DNA from: Ohtaekwangia koreensis | GTDB lineage: Bacteria > Bacteroidota > Bacteroidia > Cytophagales > Cyclobacteriaceae | DNA length: 64,000 nucleotides | Direction of reading: 5' to 3' | Assembly (NCBI RefSeq): GCF_900167975.1 | Contig: NZ_FUZU01000005.1 | Span: 191,001 to 255,000 of the forward strand | The notes under the pieces: generated by a model | Told to the model about the DNA's origin: nothing | Database searches by the model: none | What the model saw: only the letters and a program-made list of their open reading frames with translations | Shown here: positions 25,306 to 57,697 of the stretch, piece by piece | Position numbering within the stretch: the stretch's first letter is position 1 | How the letters are laid out: every line of letters begins with the position of its first letter | Position numbers and translations under genes: made by a program

Positions 25306-25354
25306 CTCTATTAAATCAATAGAGATTAAGTATTTTTAAGTTTCTATACATTTG
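25306..25354 (+). promoter_or_regulatory. Peroxiredoxin promoter with CTCTATT-palindrome operator
   Basis: The operator at 25306-25324 reads CTCTATTAAATCAATAGAG, near-perfect dyad symmetry. A perfect -7 element TACATTTG is at 25347-25354, about 22 bases before the ATG. At the -33 position there is ATT in place of TTG. The operator sits just upstream of that position, where an activator would bind. Confidence 0.66.
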
Positions 25355-25376
25355 TTTCACTTAAACACGATTGATT

Positions 25377-26009
25377 ATGTCACTCCGATTAGGCGATGTA
25401 GCCCCTGATTTTACAGCGGAAACTACCGCAGGCACTATCAAATTTCATGAATGGCTTGGCAATAGCTGGGGCATTTTATTTTCGCACCCTGCAGATTTTA
25501 CACCGGTTTGTACTACAGAACTTGGATCTATGTCGAAGTTGACACCGGAATTTGAAAAGCGTAATGTTAAAGTTCTTGCCATCAGTGCCGACCCACTTGA
25601 GTCGCATTTGAAATGGATTGGTGATATTAACGAAACGCAAAAAACAACAGTAACCTATCCGCTGATCGCAGACCCTGAATTTAAAATAGCGCACTTGTAT
25701 GGTATGGTTCACCCTGCGGTGGATAAGTTTACAGTTCGCTCTGTATTTGTGATTGGGCCTGATAAAAAAATCAAGCTGATGATTACCTATCCGGCTTCTA
25801 CCGGAAGAAACTTCGATGAGATTCTTCGCGTGGTCGATAGTCTTCAGTTAACCGCTAATTATAGCGTGGCAACCCCTGCCAACTGGAAGCATGGTGAAGA
25901 TGTAATTATTACACCTGCTGTAAAAGATGAAGACATTGCAGCTAAATTTCCAAAGGGACATACGCGCATTAAGCCGTATCTGAGAACTACGCCACAACCG
26001 AATTTATAG
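25377..26009 (+). CDS. 1-Cys peroxiredoxin (Prx6 family)
   Basis: The 210-residue protein has the Prx6 layout: LGDVAPDFTAETTAGTIKFH, then SHPADFTPVCTTE with the peroxidatic Cys45, LSISADPLESHLKWIGDI-type helix, the KLMITYPASTGRNFDEILRV segment and the extended C-terminal domain ending with FPKGHTRIKPYLR. No resolving cysteine is seen. It reduces peroxides in the cytoplasm. The ATG at 25377 is chosen over a TTG six bases earlier. It is likely co-regulated with other genes through the palindrome upstream. A strong terminator follows. Confidence 0.93.
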   Translation: MSLRLGDVAPDFTAETTAGTIKFHEWLGNSWGILFSHPADFTPVCTTELGSMSKLTPEFEKRNVKVLAISADPLESHLKWIGDINETQKTTVTYPLIADPEFKIAHLYGMVHPAVDKFTVRSVFVIGPDKKIKLMITYPASTGRNFDEILRVVDSLQLTANYSVATPANWKHGEDVIITPAVKDEDIAAKFPKGHTRIKPYLRTTPQPNL

Positions 26010-26029
26010 TCGGAATTCCAAACCTCATT

Positions 26030-26064
26030 AAAAATGCTCCTGTTCATCGAACAGGAGCATTTTT
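26030..26064 (+). terminator. Intrinsic terminator after peroxiredoxin
   Basis: The stem AAAAATGCTCCTGTTC pairs with GAACAGGAGCATTTTT over 16 bp with loop ATC, followed by more T's. A-rich on both sides, so it may work in both directions. The rest of the 26010-26290 spacer shows nothing else. Confidence 0.92.
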
Positions 26065-26290
26065 ATTTTCGGCCCGATAGTTGGATATATCTGTATGTCG
26101 GGCCGCTTTCTAAGAATCAAGGTGTATAACCACGGATATATAGGAGCAGCACGGGCACTATGCATCGTTTGCATTGTAAAACGACTCTAAGACGCAACAC
26201 GGTGTTGGTCGATTTAAAACGCAGGGCCGTCTCATTTTTGTAACGAAAGGCATAGGGGTTAACGTTAGTACGATTGTCAATGAATAAAAA

Positions 26291-26473
26291 ATGAAAGTCA
26301 TGGAAAATAAGATCAACCTTCTGGCATCCGCAAATCCCTACCTTCAGCAATTCAACATTGCACAAGTCAACCTCAATAAATTAATTAAAGAGGAACGGCT
26401 TCAGAAACGCATCGAAAGAAGCAAAAGACAACTCTTGAAGCCTGAGCAATACCAGGCTGGCACAGCGAACTAA
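26291..26473 (+). CDS. Small basic hypothetical protein
   Basis: A 60-residue product (or 57 from the second ATG at 26300) that is helical and basic at the C-terminal half: LIKEERLQKRIERSKRQLL. It is preceded by an A-rich stretch and lies in a region without overlapping genes. No family was recognised. The composition looks protein-like, but evidence is limited to the open frame and the start context. Confidence 0.42.
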   Translation: MKVMENKINLLASANPYLQQFNIAQVNLNKLIKEERLQKRIERSKRQLLKPEQYQAGTAN

Positions 26474-26604
26474 TAAGTATATCTCTTCCATAATTTTAGT
26501 ATATTGAATATGCGTGGTATATGGCTGCATTCCATATAGTATATTTGCAGCCATACGCTGAGTGGGACATTTAAAACTTGCTCAGTGACCTTAAGACCAT
26601 ATTT

Positions 26605-27126
26605 ATGCATATCAGAACAGCGGCTCCGGATGATGTACAACGAATTATGCAACTCTATAAAGAAGTTGCTAAAGTTAAAGGCGGCATCGCTCGACTCGAA
26701 AATGAAATCACGGAAGAGTACGTTGAGAACTTCCTCAAGAAAAGCCTTGCGGCAGGTTTGATCCTGGTGGCGATTCACCCGGAAGATCCTGAACGTTTTG
26801 TTGGTGAGATCCACGCCTATAAACCCGGTATACACGTCTTCAAACATCTGCTCTCAGATTTAACAATAGCCGTGCACCCGGAATTTCAAGGGAAGAAAAT
26901 AGGAAGAACACTCTTCACTATTTTCCTGGAAGAGATCGCCCTTAACCATACGGATATAGGTAAAGTAGAATTGCTTACACGCGAAGGCAATAAAAAAGCG
27001 ATAGCGTTCTATCAATCACTCGGATTTAAGATTGAAGGAAGAATGGAAATGCGGATCAAGACGCCACAAGGTATATATGAAGCAGATATACCGATGGGAT
27101 GGCAAAATCCAAATTTTGAATTCTAG
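26605..27126 (+). CDS. GNAT-family N-acetyltransferase
   Basis: The 173-residue protein starts MHIRTAAPDDVQRIMQLYKE, typical for GNAT strand 1 and helix 1. Motif A is LTIAVHPEFQGKKIGRTLF (acetyl-CoA pyrophosphate loop QGKKIG), and motif B is LTREGNKKAIAFYQSLGFKIEGR. It transfers acetyl groups from acetyl-CoA; the substrate is unknown (amino acid, peptide N-terminus or amine). I chose the ATG at 26605, because the nine residues further upstream are not part of the fold. Confidence 0.9.
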   Translation: MHIRTAAPDDVQRIMQLYKEVAKVKGGIARLENEITEEYVENFLKKSLAAGLILVAIHPEDPERFVGEIHAYKPGIHVFKHLLSDLTIAVHPEFQGKKIGRTLFTIFLEEIALNHTDIGKVELLTREGNKKAIAFYQSLGFKIEGRMEMRIKTPQGIYEADIPMGWQNPNFEF

Positions 27127-27169
27127 TAGTCAGGATACTTTTCCGTTAGAAATATAGCACAGCGCTATA

Positions 27170-28036
27170 TTAAACTCCCAGGTCAGCACCATCGGCAATA
27201 ATCAAAAGAAGTTCTTTCACTTCTTCCGCTTTCGCGTGTTCACCCATCTTGTCAAAGGACATGATCAGGTTTCGGAATACTCTGCGAATAATTTCAAGGT
27301 TAGAGCAAGGCTCGAAGAAAGATGTTTGAGGTGTGAGGTGAAGCTCGCTGATATAGTTCTCAATATCTTGTTTCGAAAAAATTAATCCTTTGTTAAAAGC
27401 ATTGATATAAAACTGTGTGTGGCGTTCATCTTTATACGTCAGCACAAATAGGTTCGGAAGATTAACACCGTATACCGGTAACTTAAGTTTTTGTGATACG
27501 AGTAGATAGATCACGCACAAGGTTATCGGATTTCCTTTTTTAGTTTCCAATACAACATTGAACATAGAGTTTCCGGGTGAATGAAAATTCTTTGTGTTGG
27601 CGCCAAACTTAAGTTTATTAAACAAGACACTGTTTACAACTTTGATCTGATCAAAAGGATAAAGATCGGGTTTGAATTCAAGCCACGTTTCGTAATAGAT
27701 CTGTTCGAGCTCCTGTTTTAATTTAATTAACTCAAGGTCTGGATACTGATACGTTGCCACGAGCCACATGCCTGTAAGTAAATCTTGCTCAGGCGTTTCA
27801 TACCAGTTTTTAATCCGCTCTTTCAGCAGTTCATATTGCAGAGAATGAATCAACTCTTCAATCTTCCGTTGTACCTGAGGATTGAAATTACTTTCCCACT
27901 CTTGCTCTAAAAACGGAATGATAGTAGTACCCAACGACAGAATCTTTTCTTCTACATGGGAAACTATTTGCACATCCTCGTCATCGAGCAGGGAAACAAG
28001 CGCTTTTAATTCAGTGTCTTTCAAATAATTATTCAA
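27170..28036 (-). CDS. SirB1-type transglutaminase-like domain protein
   Basis: The 288-residue protein has a helical N-terminal half (HEAT-like LVSLLDDEDVQIVSHVEEKI) and then the SirB1/transglutaminase-like core: FHSPGNSMFNVVLETKKGNP followed by ITLCVIYLLVSQKL (the C of ITLC is at the place of the catalytic cysteine in some members), LPVYGVNLPNLFVLTY and the FYINAFNKG segment. The end (FRNLIMSFDKMGEHAKAEEV) is TPR-like. This family is widespread and lacks an established role. Cytoplasmic. Confidence 0.85.
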   Translation of the reverse strand: MNNYLKDTELKALVSLLDDEDVQIVSHVEEKILSLGTTIIPFLEQEWESNFNPQVQRKIEELIHSLQYELLKERIKNWYETPEQDLLTGMWLVATYQYPDLELIKLKQELEQIYYETWLEFKPDLYPFDQIKVVNSVLFNKLKFGANTKNFHSPGNSMFNVVLETKKGNPITLCVIYLLVSQKLKLPVYGVNLPNLFVLTYKDERHTQFYINAFNKGLIFSKQDIENYISELHLTPQTSFFEPCSNLEIIRRVFRNLIMSFDKMGEHAKAEEVKELLLIIADGADLGV

Positions 28037-28215
28037 TGATGTTCGCTAAAGTATAAACTATTCAATATTCAAGCGAATAATGCGCTTAAAAAAAATGCCA
28101 CATTACCACTTTTTATTCCTACGCTGTGTCTAATCACTCAATGAAGAACGCTATCAACAACTGGAATATTTTTTGATGCTGCTTGGAAACCAATTATAAA
28201 TTAAAAATAAGAATC

Positions 28216-28917
28216 ATGAAGTCATCTGTTTTAGTATCCCTTTTTCTTTTTGTAAGCATTATATCTTTTGCGCAGGAAGGATTTAAAGGTGAGCATTTTA
28301 TAGAAGTTACCGGTAACGCAAAACAAGAAGTTGATCCCAACGAAATTTATGTAAATGTACAGCTCCGCGAATTTGAAGAGAACCGTGAAAAAGTATCGCT
28401 TGAAAAATTAGATAAAGAATTTTGGGATGCTATCAAAGGCGCAAACATCGATAAGAAAAAAGTTTCCCTGGCAAATGTAGGATCGCAGTTTGGAAAACTT
28501 GGTCGTAAAGATAAAGATGCATTCCGCGAAAAAACTTATCAACTTATTCTGAGCAGTGGAGGAGAACTCGAAAAATTACTGGAGAAGATTGAACCTGTTA
28601 AAGTAAACCAGGTTGTGATTACAAAAGTAAGTCATACGGATATTGAAAAATTCAGAATAGAGTTGAAAGTAAAAGCATTGCAAGCGGCAAAAACAAAAGC
28701 TGAATCATTACTGAAATCAATAGGCTCTGAAATTGGCAAGCCACTCATGGTAAGAGAATTTGAAAACTTCTATCCTCAAAATGATATGGCCACCAACGTA
28801 ATGGTACGCAGCAAAGCTGGCTATGAAGCAGAAGGTGGAATGCCTGCTGAAGATCCCACGGCCTTCAGAAAAATTACGCTGCAAGCACAGGTAACAGCAC
28901 AGTTTGAAATAAAATAA
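28216..28917 (+). CDS. SIMPL (DUF541) domain protein, exported
   Basis: The 233-residue product from the ATG at 28216 has a signal peptide (MKSSVLVSLFLFVSIISFAQ). The SIMPL features are IEVTGNAKQEVDPNEIYVNV at the start of the domain, SLEKLDKEFWDAIKGANIDK, the YQLILSS strand, and KALQAAKTKAESLLKSIGSE, then a terminal LQAQVTAQFEIK strand. DUF541 proteins are periplasmic or surface, and some are linked to oxidative stress. Function otherwise unknown. It converges on the carboxylase gene with a shared terminator. Confidence 0.88.
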   Translation: MKSSVLVSLFLFVSIISFAQEGFKGEHFIEVTGNAKQEVDPNEIYVNVQLREFEENREKVSLEKLDKEFWDAIKGANIDKKKVSLANVGSQFGKLGRKDKDAFREKTYQLILSSGGELEKLLEKIEPVKVNQVVITKVSHTDIEKFRIELKVKALQAAKTKAESLLKSIGSEIGKPLMVREFENFYPQNDMATNVMVRSKAGYEAEGGMPAEDPTAFRKITLQAQVTAQFEIK

Positions 28918-28930
28918 TATATTCTGTTTA

Positions 28931-28979
28931 ATATAAATCAATTGCCCTGGGTTTAAACCCAGGGCAATTTGATTTATAT
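28931..28979. terminator. Long bidirectional terminator between SIMPL and carboxylase genes
   Basis: The two arms pair over about 24 bp (ATATAAATCAATTGCCCTGG side against its complement) with a single extra T. It serves both convergent genes. Confidence 0.88.
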
Positions 28980-28984
28980 ATATA

Positions 28985-30616
28985 CTATGTTTGAATTACG
29001 CCTACATTAAATTTTTCGACAGGAGCATGATTGGCTGCTTCTATACCCATCGATATAACTTTTCTTGTTTCAAGCGGATCGATCACATCATCAACCCAGA
29101 TACGTGATGCCGCATAGTATGGACTGAGTTGTTCATTATAGCGGTCCGTAATTTCTTTCAGCAGTGCTTCTTCCTCTTCTTTGCCAATGGTTTTTCCTTG
29201 TGCCTTTAATGTACTCACACGAATTTGAAGTAACGTCTTTGCTGCAGAAGCTCCGCTCATTACCGCGATCTGTGCGGTGGGCCATGCCACAATAAGCCGT
29301 GGATCATATGCTTTACCACACATCGCATAATTACCGGCACCATACGAGTTACCAATGATGATGGTAAACTTCGGCACGGTTGAGTTAGCCATCGCGTTCA
29401 CCATCTTGGCACCATCTTTAATGATACCACCATGCTCTGCTTTACTCCCCACCATAAAACCACTCACGTCCTGTATAAAGACAAGCGGAATTTTTCGCTG
29501 GTTGCAATTCATGATGAAGCGAGCAGCCTTATCTGCAGAGTCAGAGTATATCACGCCTCCCATTTGCATCTCGCCCTTTTTTGTCTTTACAACTTTACGT
29601 TGATTGGCAATTATACCCACCGCCCAGCCATCGATGCGTGCCGTGCCGCATACTATACTTTTGCCGTATAGCGCTTTATACTCATCGAACTCCGAGTTGT
29701 CAACGATACGTTTGATGATATCGAGTATATCATACGGCTTTACGCGATCAACCGGCATGATGCCATATAGCTCTTTGGGATCAAGCAATGGAGGTATAGA
29801 TTTTGCGCGATCGAAACCAGTTTTATAGGACGATCCGAATTTACTGAACAACGACCGGATATAGTCCAGACACGCCTGGTCATTCGGAAATTTATTGTCT
29901 GTTACTCCGGAGATCTCGCAATGCGTGGTAGCACCGCCCAGTGTTTCATTATCTATATCTTCTCCTATAGCTGCTTTTACAAGGTATGATCCTGCAAGAA
30001 AGATAGAGCCAGTCTTGTCAACGATCATAGCTTCGTCTGACATGATCGGTAAATATGCACCACCGGCTACGCAGCTTCCCATAATGGCAGCGATTTGTAT
30101 TATACCCATCGCCGACATCTTTGCATTGTTTCGGAATTGTCTTCCGAAGTGTTCTTTGTCAGGAAAAATTTCATCCTGCATCGGTAAGAAAACTCCAGCG
30201 CTATCTACCAGATATACCACCGGTAAATGATTCTCGAGGGCGATCTCTTGTGCGCGCAGATTTTTTTTCGCGGTGATCGGAAACCATGCGCCCGCTTTTA
30301 CAGTAGCATCGTTCGCTACGATAACACATAATCTTCCATGTATATATCCAAGGCCGGTGACTACGCCTCCGGAAGGACAGCCACCTTGTTCTTTATACAT
30401 ACCATCGCCTGCGAACAATCCGATCTCCGTGAATGGAGCACCATCGTCTGTAAGGTATTCTATTCGCTCACGCGCTGTAAGTTTACCGCGTTGATGTTGC
30501 TCCTCCATTTTCTTTTCACCACCACCAAGCTTTGTCTTTTTTGCTTTGGACTGAAGTTGATAGAGGAGTTGCTTGAACTGATCTTCATTTTTATTGAACT
30601 CAAGATCGGATGCCAT
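28985..30616 (-). CDS. Acyl-CoA carboxylase beta subunit (carboxyltransferase)
   Basis: The 543-residue protein is of normal length for propionyl-/methylcrotonyl-type carboxylase beta chains. Marks are EEQHQRGKLTARERIEYLTD (N-terminal), GGCPSGGVVTGLGYIHGRLC, the acyl-CoA-binding loop with MGSCVAGGAYLPIMSDEAM, the second crotonase half with FIQDVSGFMVGSKAEHGGII, GAGNYAMCGKAYDPRLIVAW and the C-terminal YYAASRIWVDDVIDPLETRK. It transfers the carboxyl group from carboxybiotin to an acyl-CoA in amino-acid or odd-chain fatty-acid degradation. The alpha chain is not in this window, so the substrate cannot be fixed. Cytoplasmic. Confidence 0.93.
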   Translation of the reverse strand: MASDLEFNKNEDQFKQLLYQLQSKAKKTKLGGGEKKMEEQHQRGKLTARERIEYLTDDGAPFTEIGLFAGDGMYKEQGGCPSGGVVTGLGYIHGRLCVIVANDATVKAGAWFPITAKKNLRAQEIALENHLPVVYLVDSAGVFLPMQDEIFPDKEHFGRQFRNNAKMSAMGIIQIAAIMGSCVAGGAYLPIMSDEAMIVDKTGSIFLAGSYLVKAAIGEDIDNETLGGATTHCEISGVTDNKFPNDQACLDYIRSLFSKFGSSYKTGFDRAKSIPPLLDPKELYGIMPVDRVKPYDILDIIKRIVDNSEFDEYKALYGKSIVCGTARIDGWAVGIIANQRKVVKTKKGEMQMGGVIYSDSADKAARFIMNCNQRKIPLVFIQDVSGFMVGSKAEHGGIIKDGAKMVNAMANSTVPKFTIIIGNSYGAGNYAMCGKAYDPRLIVAWPTAQIAVMSGASAAKTLLQIRVSTLKAQGKTIGKEEEEALLKEITDRYNEQLSPYYAASRIWVDDVIDPLETRKVISMGIEAANHAPVEKFNVGVIQT

Positions 30617-30767
30617 AGAAGGATGATTAATTTCAAAATAGAAATTGAAAGACTAAAGATTGGAAAAATAGTTAATAGTCCATAGCAAAAGCGAAGGTCC
30701 ATCATGCGGTGGTATACACGCAAGATGGACCTTGAATTTGTCAGTCCAGATCTAAAATAACTGTAAA

Positions 30768-31727
30768 TTATTTCTGATCTTCTTTCCGTTGACGTGTCAA
30801 TTCTCTTTCTATTTTCTTGCTGCTTTTGCCCAATGGCGATAAGAAATGCCGCGGGTTTTTATCGAAGTGTTTCGCGAGTGAATCGATGGATTGCAACAGC
30901 TTGTTCAGGTTAACATACAAGGTGTCTTCTGTCAGCAGCTTGCTCATGGTGTTGTCACCTTTATTTAGGCGCGCGAGTGTTTCATTCAGTTTGGTAAGAC
31001 TTTGTTGTGCTTTTTTAACGGTGCCATTCAACTCCATCATCTTTAATGAATCCGATAACACATGGAAGTTGGCAATGGTTGGCTTCAACTCTTCGAGTGT
31101 ACCGTTAAGGTTATGAGCAACAGTTTTAAAGTTAGCACCCAGGTCGTTGATGTTGGTATTGGCTGTAACAAGTGTTTTGTTCAGTAGCCCGGGCGTTGAC
31201 TGCAAGCCGGTAAACAATGTATCAAGTCTTTTACTATTCCCCGAAAGATTCTCAAGCAGCTCATTTACTTTCTTCAGTGTAGTAGTAAGGTTGGAAGCTA
31301 CCGGTTCTGCATTTTGTGTAATGAAATCCATAATGCCTTTGGCTACTTCCGAGTTCATGGTATCCTTTGGTTCCAGAGGCTTGCCACCTTTACGAACATC
31401 GAGTTGAATAAAGCGACCGCCCAACAACTCACCATTCAGCATAGCGATGGAAGAATCTGTGAGGAGAATATCAGAGTCAATATCGAGTTCAACAATAACG
31501 CGATCTCTGCTCTGCTGTATTTGAATGTCACTTACACGGCCCACCGCATAACCGTTTAAAAAGATCTGGTTAGATTCCGTAAGCTTATCAACATTGTGAT
31601 AGATCGCGTAGTATTTATTGGTGGAAGAAAAAAAGTCGATGCCTTTCAAAAAGTTAAATCCGAAATAGAGCAACGCGATGGCCACTACCATAAAAAGGCC
31701 AACCTTGAATTCTTTTGATAATTTCAT
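30768..31727 (-). CDS. MlaD/MCE family lipid-transport protein
   Basis: The 319-residue protein has an N-terminal membrane anchor (residues 6-27). The MCE domain follows (about 38-115: YYAIYHNVDKLTESNQIFLN, GYAVGRVSDIQI, then ELLGGRFIQLDVRKGG). A long helical, coiled-coil-rich part with LLENLSGNSKRLDTLFTGL extends to the end. MCE proteins form rings that carry phospholipids between the inner and outer membranes. No Mla permease or ATPase is adjacent, but the amidase and lptD nearby also concern the envelope. It lies 45 bp downstream of the amidase gene, probably in one operon. Confidence 0.92.
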   Translation of the reverse strand: MKLSKEFKVGLFMVVAIALLYFGFNFLKGIDFFSSTNKYYAIYHNVDKLTESNQIFLNGYAVGRVSDIQIQQSRDRVIVELDIDSDILLTDSSIAMLNGELLGGRFIQLDVRKGGKPLEPKDTMNSEVAKGIMDFITQNAEPVASNLTTTLKKVNELLENLSGNSKRLDTLFTGLQSTPGLLNKTLVTANTNINDLGANFKTVAHNLNGTLEELKPTIANFHVLSDSLKMMELNGTVKKAQQSLTKLNETLARLNKGDNTMSKLLTEDTLYVNLNKLLQSIDSLAKHFDKNPRHFLSPLGKSSKKIERELTRQRKEDQK

Positions 31728-31772
31728 GCAGGGAGTAAAAAAATGTTTATTTCAGAGTAACCGTTTTCGTCC

Positions 31773-32555
31773 TCAATTTATAGATTCTACTTCACTTTTA
31801 TAGTCTTTAAAGGCCCGGTATATTCCGGAAGCAATTAAATCCTGGCCATCGTTGGTTAACAGAAATTTTTCTTCAGCTCCATTGGAAAGAAATCCGGCTT
31901 CGATCAAAACACTCGGCATCGTAGTTCTCCAGAGTACAACAAAGCCCGCTTGTTTAACACCACGGCTAAAACGCCCGACCTTGTTCTTGAACTGAGCTTC
32001 TACTTTTTGAGCAAAGCTCAGGCTGCTTTCCTGGTAAGCGCTTTGTGTTAGTGTAAAAAGAATATAGGACTCAGGACTGTTCGGATCGAATCCTTCGTAA
32101 CGTTCTTTATAGTTCTCATCCATCAGAATTACTGAGTTCTCACGTTTGGCAACCTGCAGGTTGCGTTCATCTACGTGCATACCCATGGTAAACGTTTCGG
32201 TGCCAAAGGCTTTGGAATTGGAGTGAGAGTTTGCATGTATACAGATGAACAAGTCGGCTTTGTTCCGGTTGGCGATCTCTGCGCGTTCATCCAGGGCGAG
32301 GTAGCGATCATCCTTCCGGGTGTAAATAACTTTTACGTCCGGCATATTCTTTTCTATATATTCGCCAAGCTTCAGCGCCAACTTTAGCGCGATGTCTTTC
32401 TCCCTTGCCTGCTTGCCTATATTGCCAGGGTCTTTGCCACCATGGCCGGCATCGATAACTATAACATCTACCTTTGCATCGGTACGATAAAAGGTAGATG
32501 ATGAATTTAGCAAGGTTATTGCTATCAGAAGCAGAGTTAATCCAATATTCTTCAC
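31773..32555 (-). CDS. N-acetylmuramoyl-L-alanine amidase (Amidase_3)
   Basis: The product begins at a GTG (32555) giving VKNIGLTLLLIAITLLNSSS, a good signal/anchor, and is about 260 residues. The Amidase_3 domain shows VIVIDAGHGGKDPG (zinc His), the RTEG-like YTRKDDRYLALDERAEIANR, FICIHANSHSN (second His motif) and LIEAGFLSN with the catalytic Glu. It cuts the bond between MurNAc and the peptide stem in the periplasm during cell separation or growth. A longer frame reaches 32684 but would overlap the divergent lptD start by over 100 bp; the GTG start avoids that. Precedes mlaD. Confidence 0.9.
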   Translation of the reverse strand: MKNIGLTLLLIAITLLNSSSTFYRTDAKVDVIVIDAGHGGKDPGNIGKQAREKDIALKLALKLGEYIEKNMPDVKVIYTRKDDRYLALDERAEIANRNKADLFICIHANSHSNSKAFGTETFTMGMHVDERNLQVAKRENSVILMDENYKERYEGFDPNSPESYILFTLTQSAYQESSLSFAQKVEAQFKNKVGRFSRGVKQAGFVVLWRTTMPSVLIEAGFLSNGAEEKFLLTNDGQDLIASGIYRAFKDYKSEVESIN

Positions 32556-32565
32556 AGGCCTTACA

Positions 32566-35361: not shown

Positions 35362-35426
35362 TAATAAATGATTCGTTAATGGTCGTCCGCTATACGGATA
35401 GCCTTTAACGGATCAACAGTATATCA

Positions 35427-35975: not shown

Positions 35976-36088
35976 GAACACTTCCTTTTTGAAAACCGGA
36001 AGTTAAAAGAAAGATCTCAGTATAACTGAAAGCTCTTCAGATTAAGCTTTCAGTGTAGTATACTTTTATAGGTGGCGTTAAACGTACA

Positions 36089-36112
36089 GCCTAACAGCCT
36101 AACGCCTAACGC
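36089..36112. repeat. Three tandem GCCTAAC units
   Basis: GCCTAAC occurs three times in 24 bp, with a spacer of 0-1 base, just past the end of the ABC-ATPase gene. The surrounding bases are also TTAACG-like, as in the spacers at 41000-41108 and 43318-43378. Confidence 0.5.
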
Positions 36113-36117
36113 TTTTT

Positions 36118-49605: not shown

Positions 49606-49618
49606 TAGGTATATATAG

Positions 49619-49649
49619 CTATTGCCCCGGATTAATTCCGAGGCAATAG
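49619..49649. terminator. Bidirectional terminator between the TPR and SET genes
   Basis: CTATTGCC.CGGA pairs with TCCG.GGCAATAG around a short TTAAT loop. It lies between two convergent genes. Confidence 0.82.
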
Positions 49650-49660
49650 TTGATATAGAC

Positions 49661-50245: not shown

Positions 50246-50473
50246 TCAAATGTTAATCTGTAAATTAAAGTGCGTGAAGATAAAATAAATAGCATTCCAA
50301 AAAAATCACGGATGCCATCACCGGCATAGCAGCCAGTATCTTCTGCTTCTTTTGAAAGGATAAGGTTGGAGCTTGGAGACAGGAGTGATGATTGCCTCTC
50401 GCTATTTTCTTTCTCCCATCACCCCGGTATAAACTTTAAAGAATTATGCCAGCCAACGATTGCTCCCTATAAA

Positions 50474-50507
50474 AAAGCTTGCTGTCCTGTTATAGACAGC
50501 AAGCTTT
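50474..50507 (-). terminator. Terminator after the TonB receptor gene
   Basis: AAAGCTTGCTGTC pairs with GACAGCAAGCTTT over 13 bp. On the minus strand it is followed by a run of six T's. It lies in the 50246-50600 gap, about 95 bp past the receptor stop codon. The rest of that gap holds nothing credible. Confidence 0.85.
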
Positions 50508-50600
50508 ACAACCAGAATACATACCCGGACTTTTTGCCCTTTAAATTTCTTTCAGACATTCATGATGAAGTGATAGTCGTGGAAGAAATTTCCGCCCGGG

Positions 50601-53528
50601 TTATTTTGTTAACAAACCATCCAGTGTAACGGATACATAGTATAGTCCTCCGATCGTAGGACCTGCCGCATACTGGATATAGCGATTGTTGAATAAGTTT
50701 GTTCCACCTACTTTCACACTGGTCTTGATGGCTGGCAGGCGATACGTAACCTGTGCATCCACGGTGCTATACGCAGGGATCGATCCGTTCGCCAATGGGC
50801 TTTCCCACAGGAACGACTCTTGCCATCTCCACACAATGTTAAAGCCCAGGTTGGTGATCACTTCACGATTTCCAAACGAAATGTTGGTTGCCCAAGTCGG
50901 TGTGTTGAAGCCGGTAACGAATACATCTTTCTCTTTGTTCTTCGAAATGTTGTTATAGTTTACATTTCCGGAGATCGTAAATTTCTTGTAGAAGTTATAG
51001 GTTACACCGAGTGAAGAGCCGTAGTTCTTATACTTCTGTTTCGCATTGGTATATACACGATAGCGAACCTGACGAGGTGTTCTGTTTGCTGCAAGCATAG
51101 AGATAACAGCATCATCGGTTCCTACTTCAACCTGTTTTGCAGGATCAGGATATTTACCGGTAGCATCTGCAAGGTATGGCACAGCAACTTCTACTTGTCC
51201 TAAAAAGCCATCGTATACATTGGTATAGGCATCAATGTCGATTACCAGTGTGTTGTTGAACAATACGCTTTTATATCCTACTTCGAAGGAGTTAATACGC
51301 TCCGGGCGAGTTGGAGACAAATTGGTATTCTGAAGCAGAGCTCTGTTTTTAAAAGCCGCATCGTTGGTAGTAAGACCAGCCTTTACATCCGCGTTTACAG
51401 CGGCATTGAATGTATTGATCGATGCAAGAGTATAGGAATTGTCCAGGTAGTTCAAACCTTCATTGATATAGGACAATCCACCCACGCGTCTGATATTTCC
51501 ATTATTCACAAAAGATAACGCTTCGAATAAAGAAGGGAAGCGGAAACCATTCTGAAAGGATGCACGGAAGTTATGCTTCTCCGCTACAGTATATACTGCA
51601 GCAATGCGTGGATTTATTTTTGGATTGAATTCAAGGTTATGATCGAGGCGAAGGGATCCAAACAGTTTCAATTTTTCGTTGAACAATGTTTTTGTTATCT
51701 GTGTGAAGAAGCCATATTTGGTATAGTGTACATTGCTTCCATAGCTGCCATCTTCTAATGGAGTATTGCGTTCGGCAACCGGTCTTTTGAAGTCAACGAA
51801 GTTATTTCCATCCGGTATAATTTCATATACACGAAGATCAGCGCCAACCAACAGGTCGATGAACTTCACTTTTTTGGAAAGATCCCACTGAGCATCGGTG
51901 TGATACATGCGACTCATCTGGTGAAGCTTTGCACCACCGGAAGATGTACCGGTAGGAACAGCGCTGATGTGATCCCAGTTGTTGATACCTTTGATCACAT
52001 TCTTCATAGAGTCAAAGCGATATGTACCCGGCTCGTATCGGCCAGCATCGGCAGCAGCTCTTGCAATTCGCATGGCTTCTGCCAACTCTATATCCGGATT
52101 CGCATTGAGTGTACCCTGCAGTGAAGCTTTAAATTTATCACGCCATGCGTTATTCGAAAGATGTGAAAGATCAAGGTTATCAGACAATGGTTTCAGGTTG
52201 TAAGAGTCTCCTGTATTCTCAAGAGAAACATACGAACGAATGGAGTAGTTAGCACCTTTCAATTCAAGCTTGTGATTTTGTACCCTCGTGTTATCAAGTT
52301 GTATTTTATTACCGCGTTGAAATAAACCATCGAGTAAACCAAATCTATAGCTATAGCTTAATTCAGCGTTACTTCCGATTTTATAGTGAAGCGCAGCATC
52401 AACTTTTATATTGTCAACCTTGCCAGGGACAAGATCTTTTTCCCAATAGCCAGTTCTTCTTACAACAAAAGATTGATTAGCTACCCCGTCATAGTTTATA
52501 CCACTCACTGTAACAGCGTTGCTACCACTGTCATCACCATATTTATTCCAGGCATCATAAGCAGGATGATCGGCTACATTTAGTTCGGGATAGGAAGGAT
52601 TACCTGTGCCTGCTGTTCCGTTTGGATTCTGATCCGTTTTTGTATTTCCACGCCAGTCAGTAGCACGCAGGTAACTTGCATTTATTTTAAAAGCGAATTT
52701 ATTATTGAATGCTTTTGCATAGCGGACTGCTGTCTCCGTTAAAACACTGGGATCGTAATCTATACCATCTACATGGTTTACACCCGTCTTCTGATATATA
52801 CTTAGACCCTGGTATAAAAATGGACTTTTGGTAATGAGGTTAGCCATACCGTTGATTGCATTCATACCATATAGGGCAGAGGCAGCACCAGGTGTTATCT
52901 CAACGCTTTCTATATCGAGCTCTGTCGGGCCGATGGCATTTCCCAGTGGTACACCAAGTGTAGCGGCTTGCATATCAACACCATCTACAACCTGCACGAA
53001 ACGAAAGTTGTTGGGTATATTAAATCCTCTGGTGTTCGGTACTTTAAAAGTGATACTCGAAGTTGTCATCTGCACACCCTTTACATTTTCAAGGGCATCA
53101 TAAAAACTTGGAGCCGGTGTTTCTCTGATCGCCCGTATATCCAGTTTTTCTATGGCTACAGGAGATTTAAGTTGAGACTCTTCTACGCGTGAAGCAGTGA
53201 TCACAACTTCTTCGCCTAGTAAAGCACTTGGATTTAATTTCAGGTTGATTACATCATTGGGTGATGACACAGTAATTTCTTCTGTTCTATACCCTACGAA
53301 AGAAGCCATCAACGTAACCGGAAGTTGCTTGACAGTAAGTGAGAACTTACCGGATGCATCTGTTACTGTACCAAGCACAGTACCTTTTACAGCGATGTTT
53401 ACACCGGGAAGAGCATCCTGTGTTTCACCATCGGTGATGCTTCCGCTGATTTGATTTTGTGCCTGTGCGAGGGAGCTGGCTGAGATGAGAAAAAATAAAA
53501 CGAGAACCTGGTGGTAGTATCTTTTCAT
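50601..53528 (-). CDS. TonB-dependent receptor with carboxypeptidase-regulatory-like domain
   Basis: The 975-residue outer-membrane protein has a signal peptide (MKRYYHQVLVLFFLISASSL). A CarboxypepD_reg-like domain lies at about 26-105 (GSITDGETQDALPGVNIAVK), the plug at about 113-235 (EEVVITASRVEESQLKSPVA, RGFN-type motif, TPGAASALYGMNAINGMANL) and a 22-strand barrel to the end (NLFNNRYIQYAAGPTIGG). It takes up a scarce solute using TonB energy. No SusD-like partner is next to it, so the substrate is probably not a glycan. Its promoter carries the shared palindrome (see 53564-53600), so expression is probably tied to the Rrf2-type regulator. Confidence 0.93.
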   Translation of the reverse strand: MKRYYHQVLVLFFLISASSLAQAQNQISGSITDGETQDALPGVNIAVKGTVLGTVTDASGKFSLTVKQLPVTLMASFVGYRTEEITVSSPNDVINLKLNPSALLGEEVVITASRVEESQLKSPVAIEKLDIRAIRETPAPSFYDALENVKGVQMTTSSITFKVPNTRGFNIPNNFRFVQVVDGVDMQAATLGVPLGNAIGPTELDIESVEITPGAASALYGMNAINGMANLITKSPFLYQGLSIYQKTGVNHVDGIDYDPSVLTETAVRYAKAFNNKFAFKINASYLRATDWRGNTKTDQNPNGTAGTGNPSYPELNVADHPAYDAWNKYGDDSGSNAVTVSGINYDGVANQSFVVRRTGYWEKDLVPGKVDNIKVDAALHYKIGSNAELSYSYRFGLLDGLFQRGNKIQLDNTRVQNHKLELKGANYSIRSYVSLENTGDSYNLKPLSDNLDLSHLSNNAWRDKFKASLQGTLNANPDIELAEAMRIARAAADAGRYEPGTYRFDSMKNVIKGINNWDHISAVPTGTSSGGAKLHQMSRMYHTDAQWDLSKKVKFIDLLVGADLRVYEIIPDGNNFVDFKRPVAERNTPLEDGSYGSNVHYTKYGFFTQITKTLFNEKLKLFGSLRLDHNLEFNPKINPRIAAVYTVAEKHNFRASFQNGFRFPSLFEALSFVNNGNIRRVGGLSYINEGLNYLDNSYTLASINTFNAAVNADVKAGLTTNDAAFKNRALLQNTNLSPTRPERINSFEVGYKSVLFNNTLVIDIDAYTNVYDGFLGQVEVAVPYLADATGKYPDPAKQVEVGTDDAVISMLAANRTPRQVRYRVYTNAKQKYKNYGSSLGVTYNFYKKFTISGNVNYNNISKNKEKDVFVTGFNTPTWATNISFGNREVITNLGFNIVWRWQESFLWESPLANGSIPAYSTVDAQVTYRLPAIKTSVKVGGTNLFNNRYIQYAAGPTIGGLYYVSVTLDGLLTK

Positions 53529-53563
53529 ACAATTTTAACTCTATAGTATTGGTAGATTTATGG

Positions 53564-53600
53564 CAAAAGTAGAACTATTTCCTACTAAGTCAATAGAGTT
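53564..53600 (-). promoter_or_regulatory. TonB receptor promoter with shared palindrome
   Basis: On the minus strand TTG (53593-53591) is followed after exactly 19 bases by TACTTTTG (53571-53564), a perfect fit to TTG-N19-TAnnTTTG. The palindrome CCTACTAAGTCAATAGAG (53581-53598) covers the -33 element, which suggests that the bound regulator blocks or modifies polymerase entry. The start codon lies about 30 bases downstream of the predicted transcript start. Confidence 0.78.
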
Positions 53601-53733
53601 AAGGGATTTATTTAAGAATGACAGGCCTAACGACCAGCAGGCAATAGAAAAAAACGGCTATATCGCACCATAAAGCCGATATAGCCGTTGAATCTTGATG
53701 TTTATAGCACTACGTGATTCCTTATATAGTATG

Positions 53734-55014
53734 TTAACTGAAGAGGAGATACGCTATAATCAGCGTGACAATAATGTTGAACCCTTGTGCGATCAGGAAA
53801 GCGTATAAGGGCTTTTTGCTATTTTCGTTGAACAAGTCTGAGAACTTTGTTTCCAGTCCGATGCTGGTAAAGGCAAGTACGAACCAAAGCGTTTGTATAC
53901 TCTTCAAACTATCTTTTACAGAACTCACAGCTTCAGGACTAAGCGCAAAAGAGAAGATGAGCGATGCCGCTACAAATCCGATGACAAATTTCGGAAAGCG
54001 CTCCCAGATTAATCCCAACGAAGGTTTTGTTACTTTGCCATCCGCCTGACTTTTGCCGGTATAGGTCCAATATATACTGATCACAAAAGCTGCTACACCC
54101 AGTAAAACATTTTGCGAGAATTTTACAATGGTGCTGATCTTTAATGCAGTTTCGCCCACCAATGTACCAGAGGCCACTACTGCACCCGTTGTATCTATAC
54201 TTCCACCAAGCCATGCACCGGTTACCTCCTGCGAAAAGTGAAAATAGTTGGCGATATAGGGCATGAAAATCATCATGGGGATAGCTACAATCAATACCAA
54301 TGAAATGACATATGACAGTTTTTTTGAATCTCCCTGTATAGCTCCTGCGGTTGCTATAGCAGCGGATACCCCACAGATCGATACAGCACTTGAAATCATC
54401 ATGGTTAATTCATCGTCTAGTTTGAATTTTTTACAAACCCAATATGCGAAGTACCATACACTGAGTACAACGGCTAGAGCCTGAACAAGGCCAAGCGCAC
54501 CCGCCTTAAGAATGTCTGAAAAGATTACACCGGTGCCCAGCAATACAAGACCAATCTTTACAAATAACTCTGTAGAAAGCGTTGCGCGAAACCACTCGGG
54601 AAGATTGATGGTATTGCTGATCAACAAGCCGATGGATAAGCTGAAGATTACAGCTTCCAGGTTAAGTGATTTTATCGCACTGTTACCTGCCAGTAACACT
54701 GCGATTATGGTTAAGATATATAGTATAGGAAAAACGATCAGGAAATTCTTCCATGGTTTTCCGGTGAGCAATGCACCCACTATGGCAATCAGGAAAGTAT
54801 ATATGAACTGTGCACCAATACTCCCTATATTATGAGTGGAAAATATTTTTTTGGTAAGATCATGGCCCTCTTTCCAGGAGAAGGATGGTGTTGGAATAAT
54901 AAACAAGACAAGCGAAAACAGGATGGTGATTCCTCCCAATATAACGGCCGTCCAATCTTCGTGTAGTGAAACGCTTTTCTTTGTACCTATAGTCTGCGCT
55001 GTAGTCGTATCCAT
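53734..55014 (-). CDS. YeiH-family (UPF0324) putative sulfate exporter
   Basis: The 426-residue protein has about ten to eleven membrane helices. The YeiH family pattern is clear: ALLTGKPWKNFLIVFPILYI, the IKIGLVLLGTGVIFSDILKA-like block, MMISSAVSICGVSAAIATAG and the central VTGAWLGGSIDTTGAVVASG with LVGETALKISTIVKFSQNVL. Members are annotated as putative sulfate exporters; direct proof is limited. It has a leader of about 325 bases behind a promoter with the same palindrome as the TonB receptor. This links it to a likely sulfur-response regulon. Confidence 0.92.
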   Translation of the reverse strand: MDTTTAQTIGTKKSVSLHEDWTAVILGGITILFSLVLFIIPTPSFSWKEGHDLTKKIFSTHNIGSIGAQFIYTFLIAIVGALLTGKPWKNFLIVFPILYILTIIAVLLAGNSAIKSLNLEAVIFSLSIGLLISNTINLPEWFRATLSTELFVKIGLVLLGTGVIFSDILKAGALGLVQALAVVLSVWYFAYWVCKKFKLDDELTMMISSAVSICGVSAAIATAGAIQGDSKKLSYVISLVLIVAIPMMIFMPYIANYFHFSQEVTGAWLGGSIDTTGAVVASGTLVGETALKISTIVKFSQNVLLGVAAFVISIYWTYTGKSQADGKVTKPSLGLIWERFPKFVIGFVAASLIFSFALSPEAVSSVKDSLKSIQTLWFVLAFTSIGLETKFSDLFNENSKKPLYAFLIAQGFNIIVTLIIAYLLFS

Positions 55015-55164
55015 TTTTAGAAGAATGATTTTATTAAAACCTTATAAATGTAATCAACTCTGCAATAGATAGAAAGTAAAAATACGGGAGCAAACGATCA
55101 GAGAGGAAGTGAGATTCCCGGTGATTGATGTAGAAGGATTACGGTTAACGGCCAGAGGATTGGC

Positions 55165-55236
55165 GGCTACGGAATGCACCAATGTCTTTAGAGAAATTCC
55201 ACCAAAAAATCTTTAAGACCGGTGCATCCGGAAGCC
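55165..55236 (-). other. Large hairpin in the yeiH-type leader
   Basis: GGCTACGGAATGCACC (55165-55180) faces GGTGCATCCGGAAGCC (55221-55236), 13 of 16 bases pairing, with an inner pair GTCTTTA/TTAAGAC around an A-rich loop. The segment is more GC-rich than its flanks. It lies in the leader of the transporter gene. On the coding strand it also contains a 16-codon frame from an ATG at 55238 to TAA at 55188 with one Cys. It may be a structured leader, a small coding frame, or a passenger repeat. Confidence 0.45.
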
Positions 55237-55327
55237 ATTTACTTTTAACCAATCAGTAAGGGATTTACATGATCAGCTTACAAACACGAACCTGATAAGA
55301 TAAATATATACTTGTTCCTTTTTTGAT

Positions 55328-55375
55328 CTCTACTAAATCTATAGACAAATATATGTTGGATAATTTTATGTACAA
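55328..55375 (-). promoter_or_regulatory. YeiH-type transporter promoter with shared palindrome
   Basis: On the minus strand TTG (55375-55373) is followed after exactly 19 bases by TATATTTG (55353-55346). The palindrome CTCTACTAAATCTATAGAC (55328-55346) follows at the transcript start, a place typical for a repressor. The gene start is about 315 bases downstream, so a long leader is made. Confidence 0.78.
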
Positions 55376-55393
55376 GCATTCGCGAATTTTTTT

Positions 55394-56329
55394 TTAAATA
55401 GTGAGTGCTATTTCTTTTATTTTCTGGAGCCGTTGTTCCAGGTAGTTGGTCAGTTGATCGAACGGATTAAAATCCAAACCATCCACACCAATGCTCAACG
55501 AACTGGTATGTGGGCGGATAGCATAGAAGTAAACGTTGTTTGTTTTGCGGTCAATGATATACTCAATGCTGCCAACATCAATGAGTGCCGCATGAGCAAT
55601 TTTTTCCAATGCCTGGGTAATCTCTATAGACGGCGTAAATATATTCGCCTTGACTTCGATAGACCAGGCATCGGGTTGATCGCCTGCATGAAAAACTTTT
55701 ACCGCGTATAGAACCTGGCCATTCAAAATTTCTGCTCGCAGAATATGGTTTCCTTTCGGCTGAATATACTCTTGCACGACCAACGACTTATCTCCATTCA
55801 AACGCAATTCATCGTTGATGAGTACATTGACCAATTCACTGATAGACTCAAACCGCTGCGTAGCAATGTGGTCGTTAATGCCGTTACTCTTTATAAGAAT
55901 AGGAAAGTTAAGTTCATTGCCGGCTGCAAGCAGTTGATCGATACTGCTGACAACACGTGTTTTCGGAAAAGATATACCCAGCGAAGCAAATACTGCCAGC
56001 TGCCGCGACTTCGTGCTAAGGATTTCCGTAACACGGGCTCCATTAATTATTTTACTGCTGTTGTGTATACCATTTAACTTCTCCACATGTTTTACATATT
56101 CTATAGTCTGTGCTATACCCAGTGCGTTGTGTGTGAGGTATGGCGGAGAGCTCATGTCGTTAAATACAAGACTATAGGGAACTTCGTATTGGGCAGGGTC
56201 ATATAAATGATCCGCCGGATTAATGATGTCAAACGCAATTCCCCGGTTATAAAGTTTTTCAAACAAAGGGTTGTATTGCTCCGAGTGCCCGTAAATAATA
56301 CCAATTGGTTTATCAAAAAATGAAAGCAT
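55394..56329 (-). CDS. ATP-grasp-type protein
   Basis: The 311-residue protein from the ATG at 56329 (MLSFFDKPIGIIYGHSEQYN) has an N-terminal pre-grasp region. An ATP-grasp domain covers about 100-300: TKSRQLAVFASLGISFPKTR, FPILIKSNGINDHIATQRFE, LVVQEYIQPKGNHILRAEIL and LIDVGSIEYIIDRKTNNVYF. The RimK/glutathione-synthetase-like group joins a carboxylate to an amine or thiol with ATP. It forms an operon with the PhyH-type gene 46 bases upstream. It stands under a promoter with the shared palindrome and a cysteine-rich leader peptide, which suggests work on a sulfur compound. Confidence 0.82.
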   Translation of the reverse strand: MLSFFDKPIGIIYGHSEQYNPLFEKLYNRGIAFDIINPADHLYDPAQYEVPYSLVFNDMSSPPYLTHNALGIAQTIEYVKHVEKLNGIHNSSKIINGARVTEILSTKSRQLAVFASLGISFPKTRVVSSIDQLLAAGNELNFPILIKSNGINDHIATQRFESISELVNVLINDELRLNGDKSLVVQEYIQPKGNHILRAEILNGQVLYAVKVFHAGDQPDAWSIEVKANIFTPSIEITQALEKIAHAALIDVGSIEYIIDRKTNNVYFYAIRPHTSSLSIGVDGLDFNPFDQLTNYLEQRLQKIKEIALTI

Positions 56330-56375
56330 GGTTGTAGTTTTTTCTAACAAAAATATAGCGTGCGTCTTCTAAAAT

Positions 56376-57224
56376 TTATGCTGCTCTTCTGAAAGCAGGG
56401 ATCAGGTTTTTGTGCTTCTTACTGCCTACGAGTGGCAACAAGTGCAGGTATAGGGGAGTAGTACTCTTTTCAGTTTTAGGATTGTATTTACCAACGATCA
56501 TCGGTATATACATTACTCTTCTGCGGCTTGCAGCGCCTGTTAAAGGTGATGGCGCCACACGATGCCAGATTCTTCCGTCATGAATAACCAGGTCGCCAGC
56601 GTTTGCTTCAACAAGCACTTCATTCTTGTCGTCATAATTATTCAAATAGTATTTCTTGCGAAAGAGTAGATCCCAAAGTCCTTGTTTATGCGTGCCAGGC
56701 AAAACACGCAGTCCACCTTTATCAGCAGTGGAGTCATCGAGATAAAAACCGATGTTAAGCATAGGCGCTACTTTCTTGCCATAAAATATATCACGAGCGC
56801 TATCCGTATGCCAGCCCATGTGGTAAAAATTACTTCCTTCACTATTTACATAGTGATTGAACACTACACCATCTTTTTCTTCAAGACCAAGGCGTGCGCC
56901 TTTGGGCATTAAAACGCGAAGCGCATCAAGTGCAGGGTTATTTGCAAATTGGTTAACCGCTTCACTATGTTGATTTGTAAATGCAAATCGTTGTACGATG
57001 GTTTCTCCATTTTCATCAACACCATATTTAATAGGAACACCATTTATTTTCTGAACATTTTCTTTCACCCATCTGCGTTGAACCTGCTCAGTCGATTGTA
57101 TGATCGCGTCTACAGTTTCCTGCGATGCATATTTTTCAAAATGAATGAAGCCATTCTTCTGGAAGAAATTAATTTGTTCTTCTGTTAATATACCTTCGAA
57201 AGTAAATTTTTTATAAGTAGCCAT
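56376..57224 (-). CDS. Phytanoyl-CoA dioxygenase (PhyH) family protein
   Basis: The 282-residue protein carries the 2-oxoglutarate/Fe(II) site: H139 and D141 in GWHTDSARD, the distal H221 in IWHRVAPSP, and an Arg in the SRRRVMYIP segment. The N-terminal FFQKNGFIHFEKYASQETVD is typical of PhyH proteins. It oxidises a small substrate; members act on phytanoyl-CoA, phosphonates or other metabolites, so the substrate is open. It is the first gene of a two-gene unit with the ATP-grasp gene, behind a cysteine-rich leader peptide and the shared palindrome. A sulfur-scavenging or thiol-biosynthetic role is inferred. Confidence 0.88.
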   Translation of the reverse strand: MATYKKFTFEGILTEEQINFFQKNGFIHFEKYASQETVDAIIQSTEQVQRRWVKENVQKINGVPIKYGVDENGETIVQRFAFTNQHSEAVNQFANNPALDALRVLMPKGARLGLEEKDGVVFNHYVNSEGSNFYHMGWHTDSARDIFYGKKVAPMLNIGFYLDDSTADKGGLRVLPGTHKQGLWDLLFRKKYYLNNYDDKNEVLVEANAGDLVIHDGRIWHRVAPSPLTGAASRRRVMYIPMIVGKYNPKTEKSTTPLYLHLLPLVGSKKHKNLIPAFRRAA

Positions 57225-57349
57225 GATATTTTAAATTTTAAGTTTTTGTTATAGTTAGCAGTATGTTGAATCGATCCGTTCAACATCGACATGTTGATAG
57301 TATATGAACCATTTACATGTCTCATCTTTTGGAACAATAAGTCCCGGTC

Positions 57350-57370
57350 ACATTCTCTTTAGGAGAATGT
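57350..57370 (-). other. Hairpin between leader peptide and PhyH gene
   Basis: ACATTCTC and GAGAATGT pair over 8 bp around a five-base loop. It lies 46 bases after the end of the leader peptide and about 125 bases before the PhyH start. No T-run follows, so it is not a simple terminator. It could form part of a translational switch. Confidence 0.4.
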
Positions 57371-57416
57371 ATTTTACTCGTCTTAAATTTTAATAGGGGA
57401 ATTTCAAAAGGCCGAA

Positions 57417-57506
57417 TCAACAACAACAGTTGTGCATGCAACGATTTGTATAGATAGCCTGTGGATGCATACTACTACGAACGGAGAATTCTTTTCTGTG
57501 TTTCAT
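57417..57506 (-). CDS. 29-residue cysteine-rich leader peptide
   Basis: An ATG at 57506 opens a 29-codon frame ending at TGA (57417-57419). The peptide starts MKHRKEFSVRSSMHPQ and ends NRCMHNCCC, with four cysteines in the last seven residues and a final Cys-Cys-Cys. It lies within the leader of the dioxygenase operon, about 140 bases after the predicted transcript start. Strings of cysteine codons just before a stop are a hallmark of leader peptides that sense cysteinyl-tRNA through ribosome stalling. No family was recognised. It is too short to be a typical gene, and the evidence is composition and place. Confidence 0.6.
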   Translation of the reverse strand: MKHRKEFSVRSSMHPQAIYTNRCMHNCCC

Positions 57507-57648
57507 GTTAGTTAAAATTTTATAGTTCCAATTTTTTTATTGGTAGGAATTAGCACCTTTTCAGCTTGGCAGCTGATAGGTTGCTAGGGGATCGCTGAGC
57601 CTATTCTCTACTCCCTTCTGTATAAAATCAATCTGGTGAGAATTGATT

Positions 57649-57697
57649 TGTCTACTAAATCGATAGACAAATGTAGGTATTGATTTTTAATGCACAA
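57649..57697 (-). promoter_or_regulatory. PhyH operon promoter with shared palindrome
   Basis: On the minus strand TTG (57697-57695) is followed after exactly 19 bases by TACATTTG (57675-57668). The palindrome GTCTACTAAATCGATAGAC (57650-57668) lies at the transcript start. This is the most symmetric of the four copies. The leader to the PhyH start is over 400 bases and encodes the cysteine-rich peptide. Confidence 0.8.

Follow-up and report, generated by a model that had tools for sequence, protein, structure and literature searches.

Four promoters within a stretch of 64,000 nucleotides of the Ohtaekwangia koreensis genome (contig NZ_FUZU01000005.1, positions 191,001 to 255,000, referred to here as the window) carry the same palindrome, and the analysis supports this being a real and conserved switch site of a small sulfur-supply regulon. 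The palindrome is probably an operator, with a probability that we put at about 0.7, which would most likely be read by Rrf2-1, the Rrf2 family regulator encoded beside its first copy, and which would be stacked with layers of regulatory RNA. A single regulon had been proposed in an earlier note made from the letters of the window, and the conserved sites at fixed promoter positions agree with it. Sulfur supply, also anticipated there, is taken as the theme of the regulon because SAM-I (S-adenosylmethionine, SAM) riboswitches and leader open reading frames (ORFs) ending in runs of cysteine codons lie on the same transcripts, and because sulfur genes are found among the targets and their neighbours. 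The genes that the note had named behind the sites, here called A to D, were all recovered by profile matches, namely a 1-Cys peroxiredoxin (A), a TonB receptor (B), a YeiH-type transporter (C) and a PhyH and ATP-grasp pair (D), as was the Rrf2 gene.

The four palindromes do share one consensus, since each contains CTAYTAARTCNATAGA without a mismatch, and the operator can be written approximately as TCTAYT-N5-ARTAGA. Within the window alone, allowing up to three mismatches, 13 matches are found against a shuffle mean of 8.4, and 10 of 100 shuffles reach 13, which is not above chance. In the whole genome (7,241,272 bases) the exact consensus occurs five times and the same pattern read backwards does not occur, and over 59 genomes, consisting of this genome and its relatives, there are 27 exact copies against one for the reversed pattern used as control. 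At up to two mismatches there is no genome-wide excess (36+29 for the pattern, 28+31 for the control), and such matches were discarded. The fifth exact site of the genome (C3:384099) lies upstream of a sulfatase gene (PF00884), and sites with one mismatch precede a fatty-acid hydroxylase gene (PF04116, C2:284627) and a SusC operon (C4:809656), so that the genome holds seven credible sites, four of them in the window. The SusC operon encodes a periplasmic-binding-like protein, a SusC-type receptor and SusD, the last recognised by eye; the binding-like protein has no Pfam match, and its homolog in genome G021 matches PBP_like_2 below the cut-off.

An equal frequency of the palindrome inside genes had been named in the earlier note as an outcome that would speak against the regulon. 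Exact copies lie between genes in 23 of 27 cases (5/5 in this genome and 18/22 in the relatives), and the sites are thus concentrated at promoters rather than inside genes. The one-mismatch matches of the genome do not follow this pattern: four of the six are inside ORFs and the other two are the promoter sites mentioned above. This counts against the operator, as do the four exact matches inside ORFs in relatives, which are the only exact matches of genomes G018, G028, G034 and G045.

Within the promoters the sites occupy fixed positions (Table 1). A -7 element was located beside every site, and TTG stands exactly 19 nucleotides upstream of it at B, C and D, as had been noticed before. On the gene strand two layouts recur: in one the palindrome lies over the -33 element, 10 nucleotides from TAnnTTTG, with the promoter TTG forming part of it (B, sulfatase, hydroxylase), and in the other it follows directly behind TAnnTTTG (C, D, SusC operon). 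Site A is further upstream than in both. The described shift from a place upstream of or over the -33 element (A, B) to the transcript start (C, D) therefore stands. When palindrome and promoter were searched as combined patterns in the 59 genomes at up to two mismatches, the layout over -33 gave 27 matches against 10 for its control and the layout behind -7 gave 20 against 7. Without mismatch they gave 10 and 6 matches respectively, all in the genus or in genomes G021 or G030. A chance origin of the sites was rejected, as both the exact-match and the geometry-aware tests exceed their controls.

The repeat at C and D begins where transcription is expected to start and could become part of the RNA; it might there form a hairpin at the 5' end of the transcript instead of serving as an operator. 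This we regard as very improbable, since at A, B and the sulfatase and hydroxylase promoters the same letters stand 5' of the -7 box, outside the transcript. For an operator, both overlap positions, over the -33 element and at the transcript start, would suit a repressor, and only site A would also suit an activator. The idea that the site both activates and represses is consequently not established.

Table 1. Features of the window that bear on the palindrome regulon (positions count from the first letter of the window)
Feature	Position	Strand	Remarks
Rrf2-1, Rrf2 family regulator that may read the palindrome	24842-25282	+	PF02082 115.8 bits vs 30; TIGR00738 104.6 vs 73.3
Site A palindrome	25306-25324	+	5' of the peroxiredoxin -7 box; same place kept in the genus
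Promoter A -7 element TACATTTG	25347-25354	+	ATT, not TTG, 19 nucleotides upstream
1-Cys peroxiredoxin	25377-26009	+	Likely ATG 25377; PF00578, PF10417; PRK13189 217.2 bits, cut-off 211
TonB-dependent receptor	50601-53528	-	PF00593, PF07715, PF13715
Second, degenerate palindrome copy, promoter B	53540-53555	-	3 mismatches; near transcript start; visible in seven genomes compared
Promoter B -7 element TACTTTTG	53564-53571	-	10 nucleotides from site core
Site B palindrome	53581-53598	-	Covers -33 TTG of the TonB receptor promoter
YeiH-type transporter	53734-55014	-	PF03601 176 bits; TIGR00698 93.1 bits, below cut-off 232.6
R1 structured RNA, YeiH leader	55150-55244	-	Model R1 97.8 bits (copy among those building the model); fold z -4.0 vs shuffles
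Site C palindrome	55328-55346	-	Immediately 3' of the YeiH -7 box
Promoter C -7 element TATATTTG	55346-55353	-	TTG at 55373-55375
ATP-grasp (RimK-like) protein	55394-56350	-	PF08443 24 bits, cut-off 21
PhyH-type dioxygenase	56376-57224	-	PF05721 70.3 bits, cut-off 22
Leader ORF, 29 codons, ends Cys-Cys-Cys-stop	57417-57506	-	Starts 10 nucleotides behind the SAM aptamer
SAM-I riboswitch aptamer (RF00162)	57517-57628	-	69.5 bits vs gathering score 44.4 (E 3.7e-14); behind site D and ahead of PhyH
Site D palindrome	57650-57668	-	Immediately 3' of the -7 box, 5' of the SAM aptamer
Promoter D -7 element TACATTTG	57668-57675	-	TTG at 57695-57697

The product of the gene next to site A belongs to the Rrf2 family over its whole length by the profiles. 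It had been described as having four cysteines; the total is six, and four of these sit in a cluster at the C-terminus. Against the IscR equivalog (TIGR02010) it scores 66.3 bits with a cut-off of 207.55, and against the CymR equivalog (NF047409) 55.1 with a cut-off of 195, so that by profile it is an Rrf2 protein but neither of these two, and a CymR-like way of working belongs only to the scheme proposed below. An Rrf2 protein is the likely reader of the palindrome, the linkage between the genes being strong and the binding predicted. In all seven genomes of the genus, this one included, Rrf2-1 stands directly before the peroxiredoxin gene with the site between them at 0-2 mismatches, and a good site (1 mismatch) lies between the two genes in G023 as well. 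Other genes can also follow: in G033, G034 and G036 the Rrf2 gene has behind it a stretch resembling the palindrome, with 1, 2 and 3 mismatches respectively, and then a permease gene, with CitMHS and Na_sulph_symp matches in G033 and G036, the two that were scanned; behind the sole Rrf2 match of G051 come a site with 1 mismatch and a gene for a TonB receptor. In a set of 30 Rrf2 loci a site with up to two mismatches is found within 300 nucleotides on either side at 13, and with the pattern reversed at none. In a second set, made up of 80 loci, the best of 97 taken from named genome records (relatives such as Chryseolinea, Parachryseolinea, Dawidia and Pseudochryseolinea) and overlapping some genomes of the first, the palindrome lies within 150 nucleotides behind the stop codon at 46 of 80 loci, compared with 0/80 for the reversed pattern and 0/80 in the 200 nucleotides upstream. 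The rows of this set, like those of the 129 SAM-I aptamers treated below, are related sequences, and p-values overstate their independence.

Several findings weigh against Rrf2-1 as the reader. The site before the peroxiredoxin gene of G030 is degenerate (4 mismatches). In the 80-locus set the palindrome appears only where the peroxiredoxin comes next (46 of 53 such loci, and none of the 27 others), and may therefore belong to the promoter of the peroxiredoxin and not to the Rrf2 gene; the 27 loci lacking the peroxiredoxin include Rrf2 genes that are 75-77% identical (L332, L333 and L337). Moreover, although the Rrf2-1 clade comprises exactly G000-G006, G021 and G030 (supported at 100/100 by a tree with 34 rows), and these same nine genomes (family f1) have the palindrome before SAM aptamers, as does G051 from another family, this co-occurrence is unusable as proof for Rrf2-1 because a second Rrf2 paralog with 46-49% identity is found in each of the nine.

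This paralog, Rrf2-2 (C6:545091 in the present genome), could read the palindrome alone or together with Rrf2-1. The four paralogs placed in the tree form one clade (99/99), the letters of their helix-turn-helix and wing are by eye nearly those of Rrf2-1, and the gene of G030 adjoins a palindrome. In G006 it lies (L159, G006:C45, 5949-11985) beside genes that by eye are YceI-like, YeiH-like and TonB-like, and the two paralogs may thus be linked with targets of the same sort. Nevertheless, among the four paralogs inspected the site adjoins only that of G030; within 400 nucleotides of those in G000, G006 and G021 the best match has 4 or 5 mismatches, in contrast to the well-kept site behind Rrf2-1 throughout the genus. 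Reading by Rrf2-2 is accordingly considered unlikely, without being negligible.

The constant company of the peroxiredoxin could also be explained by a peroxide, nitric oxide or Fe-S regulon, or by a site that belongs to the peroxiredoxin promoter and is read by some other regulator. The peroxiredoxin is the most conserved target beside Rrf2, and Rrf2-1 has its C-terminal cysteine cluster. Against such a regulon speak the SAM-I aptamers and the Cys-run leaders that these transcripts carry, and also the sulfatases, Cys/Met PLP (pyridoxal phosphate) enzymes and sulfate- or chromate-type transporters among the targets and neighbours. Furthermore, sites lie behind Rrf2 before other genes in G033, G034, G051 and G028 (1-2 mismatches), and an OxyR-like/AhpC-like gene cluster of the window has no site at up to two mismatches. 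We therefore hold this explanation to be improbable, and an operator for sulfur supply remains the preferred reading. In the relatives, the genes behind or next to these elements include sulfatases, a rhodanese, SAM_HAT_N (SAM hydroxide adenosyltransferase), ChrB, a chromate transporter, Cys/Met PLP enzymes and permeases with CitMHS and Na_sulph_symp matches. At one locus of G021 (L078 and L152, G021:C7) Rrf2-1 stands before ChrB and then the chromate transporter, and a palindrome with SAM-I and a Cys-run leader is found 6.4 kb away.

The RNA elements on these transcripts had not been noticed in the earlier note. The first RNA layer is the aptamer behind site D, which is a SAM-I riboswitch by the gathering score of RF00162 and is predicted to bind SAM. 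The genome has five SAM-I copies, three of which lie behind the palindrome (D, sulfatase and SusC operon), that is at 3/7 of the promoter sites. The other two, before a MetY-type gene with Cys_Met_Meta_PP and before a gene that by its sequence is metH, have no palindrome at up to four mismatches. The 59 genomes yielded a list of 129 SAM-I aptamers, coming from 52 of them. A palindrome with up to two mismatches is located within 300 nucleotides upstream of 17 of these aptamers, in 10 cases without mismatch; in the reversed upstream sequences there is none (0/129), and nothing below three mismatches.

The second layer is a short ORF behind the aptamer that ends in a run of cysteine codons. Under a strict rule, which asks for three consecutive Cys among the last eight codons, such an ORF follows 52 of the 129 aptamers, and the next most frequent residue, Arg, reaches 3; under a looser one, with three Cys among six codons and the ATG at most 80 nucleotides away, it follows 59. 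The 52 strict leaders belong to 33 of the 52 genomes with SAM-I, and to 26 genera and 8 families. In the present genome the leader of the sulfatase ends in FCCR and fails both rules, and that of metY passes the looser one only. Sorted by the downstream gene, with classes assigned from short typed motifs and not from family scans, the looser rule finds the leader at 0/39 metH, 29/37 metY, 1/10 metB/Z-like and 29/43 other loci (Fisher test for metH against the rest, p 5.7e-14, the rows not being independent). The leader thus appears where sulfur enters and is absent at methionine synthase. These ORFs are short and predicted from sequence, and might be chance reading frames, for which the absence of Cys runs from the class-wide draw described below would also speak; we give this hardly any credence, as no other residue exceeds 3 where Cys gives 52, 40 of the 52 leader ATGs lie 7-11 nucleotides behind the aptamer, both TGT (198) and TGC (116) are used as Cys codons, and none is found at the 39 metH loci.

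With a run of Cys codons close to the stop, these short upstream ORFs resemble those of an attenuator. Three results weigh against this interpretation or its reach: a search of the D leader gave no intrinsic terminator, the Cys run pairs with downstream RNA no better than shuffled sequence does (34 of 59 loci above, p 0.41), and a class-wide draw, made of the loci of the 30 best-scoring of 198 genomes, has the Cys run at 0/30 SAM-I loci (16/30 are metH by motif). A classical attenuator is therefore not favoured, given the D leader without terminator and the pairing at shuffle level, and the leader may instead act through Rho or through coupled translation. In view of the class-wide result, the joint leader is proposed for this order alone. 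SAM-I aptamers with Cys-run leaders also occur at L115, L248, L254, L287, L295, L296, L309 and L313, in other genera. The genes behind these are, judging by their sequence, presumably ferredoxin-like and OsmC-like, which suggests that the sulfur set may be wider than metY.

The third layer, R1, recurs in two leaders, that of the SusC operon and that of the YeiH gene at site C. For the copy in the window a comparison with Rfam 15 gave no family at E values of up to 5. Five copies folded singly have z values of -3.2 to -5.0 relative to shuffles. In the outer helix 94.6% of the cells are paired over 13 distinct rows, with 5 pairs changed on both sides, against 25-49% paired when the helix is slid; the alignment was fitted to the structure, so that pair counts lean towards it. 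Against the helix stands the number of further pair types, which is 11 compared with 12.0 in shuffles, 460 of 500 shuffles being at least as high. The model finds 14 copies in 10 of 146 genomes, 11 of these copies having been used to build it. In G110 and G125, from another family of the order, and in G006:C4, a palindrome-like site behind the -7 box, the Cys-run leader and R1 are kept by eye, and the SAM aptamer looks degenerate, again by eye. A pseudoknot between the loop UUGGU and the 3' tail RCCAA is likewise seen by eye only, in letters that hardly vary. R1 as a small protein, starting from ATGGCTT in several copies, was rejected, because the ATG is missing in some in which the helix is kept. 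The RNA could possibly be a ligand-binding element or an expression platform.

These elements can be joined in the following scheme, in which binding by Rrf2-1, the signal that it senses and the direction of control are predictions. When sulfur is sufficient, a dimer of an Rrf2 protein, most likely Rrf2-1, would bind the palindrome and block the promoters with the site over the -33 element (TonB receptor, sulfatase and hydroxylase) and those with the site over the transcript start (YeiH, PhyH/ATP-grasp and SusC operon). On some transcripts the SAM-I aptamer would report SAM or methionine, and in the leader ORF about 9 nucleotides behind it, if it is translated, ribosomes would stall at the Cys codons when Cys-tRNA is short and might so influence the gene; at some loci R1 would come next. 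Expression would then require three shortages together: of sulfur, reported by the protein, of SAM, reported by the aptamer, and of cysteine, reported by the leader.

The layered leader of operator, SAM-I, Cys run and R1 would be the more surprising part of the scheme. In its fullest form up to four readers of sulfur would act on one transcript, R1 possibly being a riboswitch class for a further sulfur metabolite, and translation of the Cys leader would be under the control of the SAM aptamer, giving a two-input RNA gate on sulfur-assimilation genes that is omitted at metH. We propose this form only tentatively and hold it to be somewhat doubtful. If the whole scheme is true, it provides an operator of defined sequence together with a candidate for its regulator, a two-input RNA leader that lends itself to testing (33 of 52 SAM-I genomes) and a compact folded RNA that has no known family. 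Sulfatase and SusC loci are usually taken as genes for carbohydrate use, and they would become tied to sulfur hunger.

Several known systems resemble parts of the scheme. CymR, the cysteine repressor of Bacillus and Staphylococcus and an Rrf2 protein, is described as repressing cysteine genes, and its loss as also affecting oxidative stress genes, indirectly (PMC2869319). The likeness consists in the family, in sulfur-supply targets and in the fact that CymR (2y75) is the second-best match of Rrf2-1 in the PDB, whereas Rrf2-1 falls below the CymR cut-off and has its C-terminal cluster of four Cys, and the targets here are genes of the SusC/sulfatase, TonB and YeiH kinds, on which SAM-I and Cys-run leaders are superimposed. 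The aptamer at D is a regular SAM-I (S box) element by its score, but it is followed by the Cys-run leader ORF and not directly by the gene, and its leader has no recognised intrinsic terminator.

Leader peptides with Cys runs are reported before cys operons of actinobacteria (PMC1262725). They share with the present ones the short ORF, the Cys run near the stop, the place upstream of sulfur genes and, as far as that account goes, the lack of a conserved terminator, but they belong to another phylum, and here the leader lies about 9 nucleotides behind a SAM-I aptamer. In Rhodobacterales the upstream ORF uORFC-8-2 before cysS has tandem (two) Cys codons and is a proposed attenuator (PMC8632094); it is similar in being an upstream ORF with tandem Cys codons and different in that the motif ends in an intrinsic terminator and that the available part of the report describes no SAM aptamer. 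For Flavobacterium psychrophilum, of the same phylum, attenuation of amino-acid operons by leader peptides is mentioned in general terms (PMC9723704); leader peptides thus precede amino-acid genes there too, although the available text names neither a Cys run nor a link to SAM-I. The open-access literature, so far as it was available, yielded nothing on an Rrf2 sulfur regulon of Bacteroidota or on SAM-I joined to Cys-run leaders, which is weak evidence of absence.

Some further features of the window can be mentioned. Three tRNA genes lie on the minus strand at 24156-24766, just upstream of the Rrf2 gene. A 1424-codon ORF at 11483-15757, in an AT-rich stretch (33-35% GC), has what we take to be a P-loop NTPase segment and lies between ORFs that, judging by their sequence, are presumably transposase-like (5780-6628) and RadC-like (16666-17283). 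At 61249-63458 a LysR regulator that resembles OxyR, with a score under the OxyR cut-off, is encoded divergently to an AhpC-type peroxiredoxin and an AhpD-like protein, and similar clusters are present at L068, L069 and L233.

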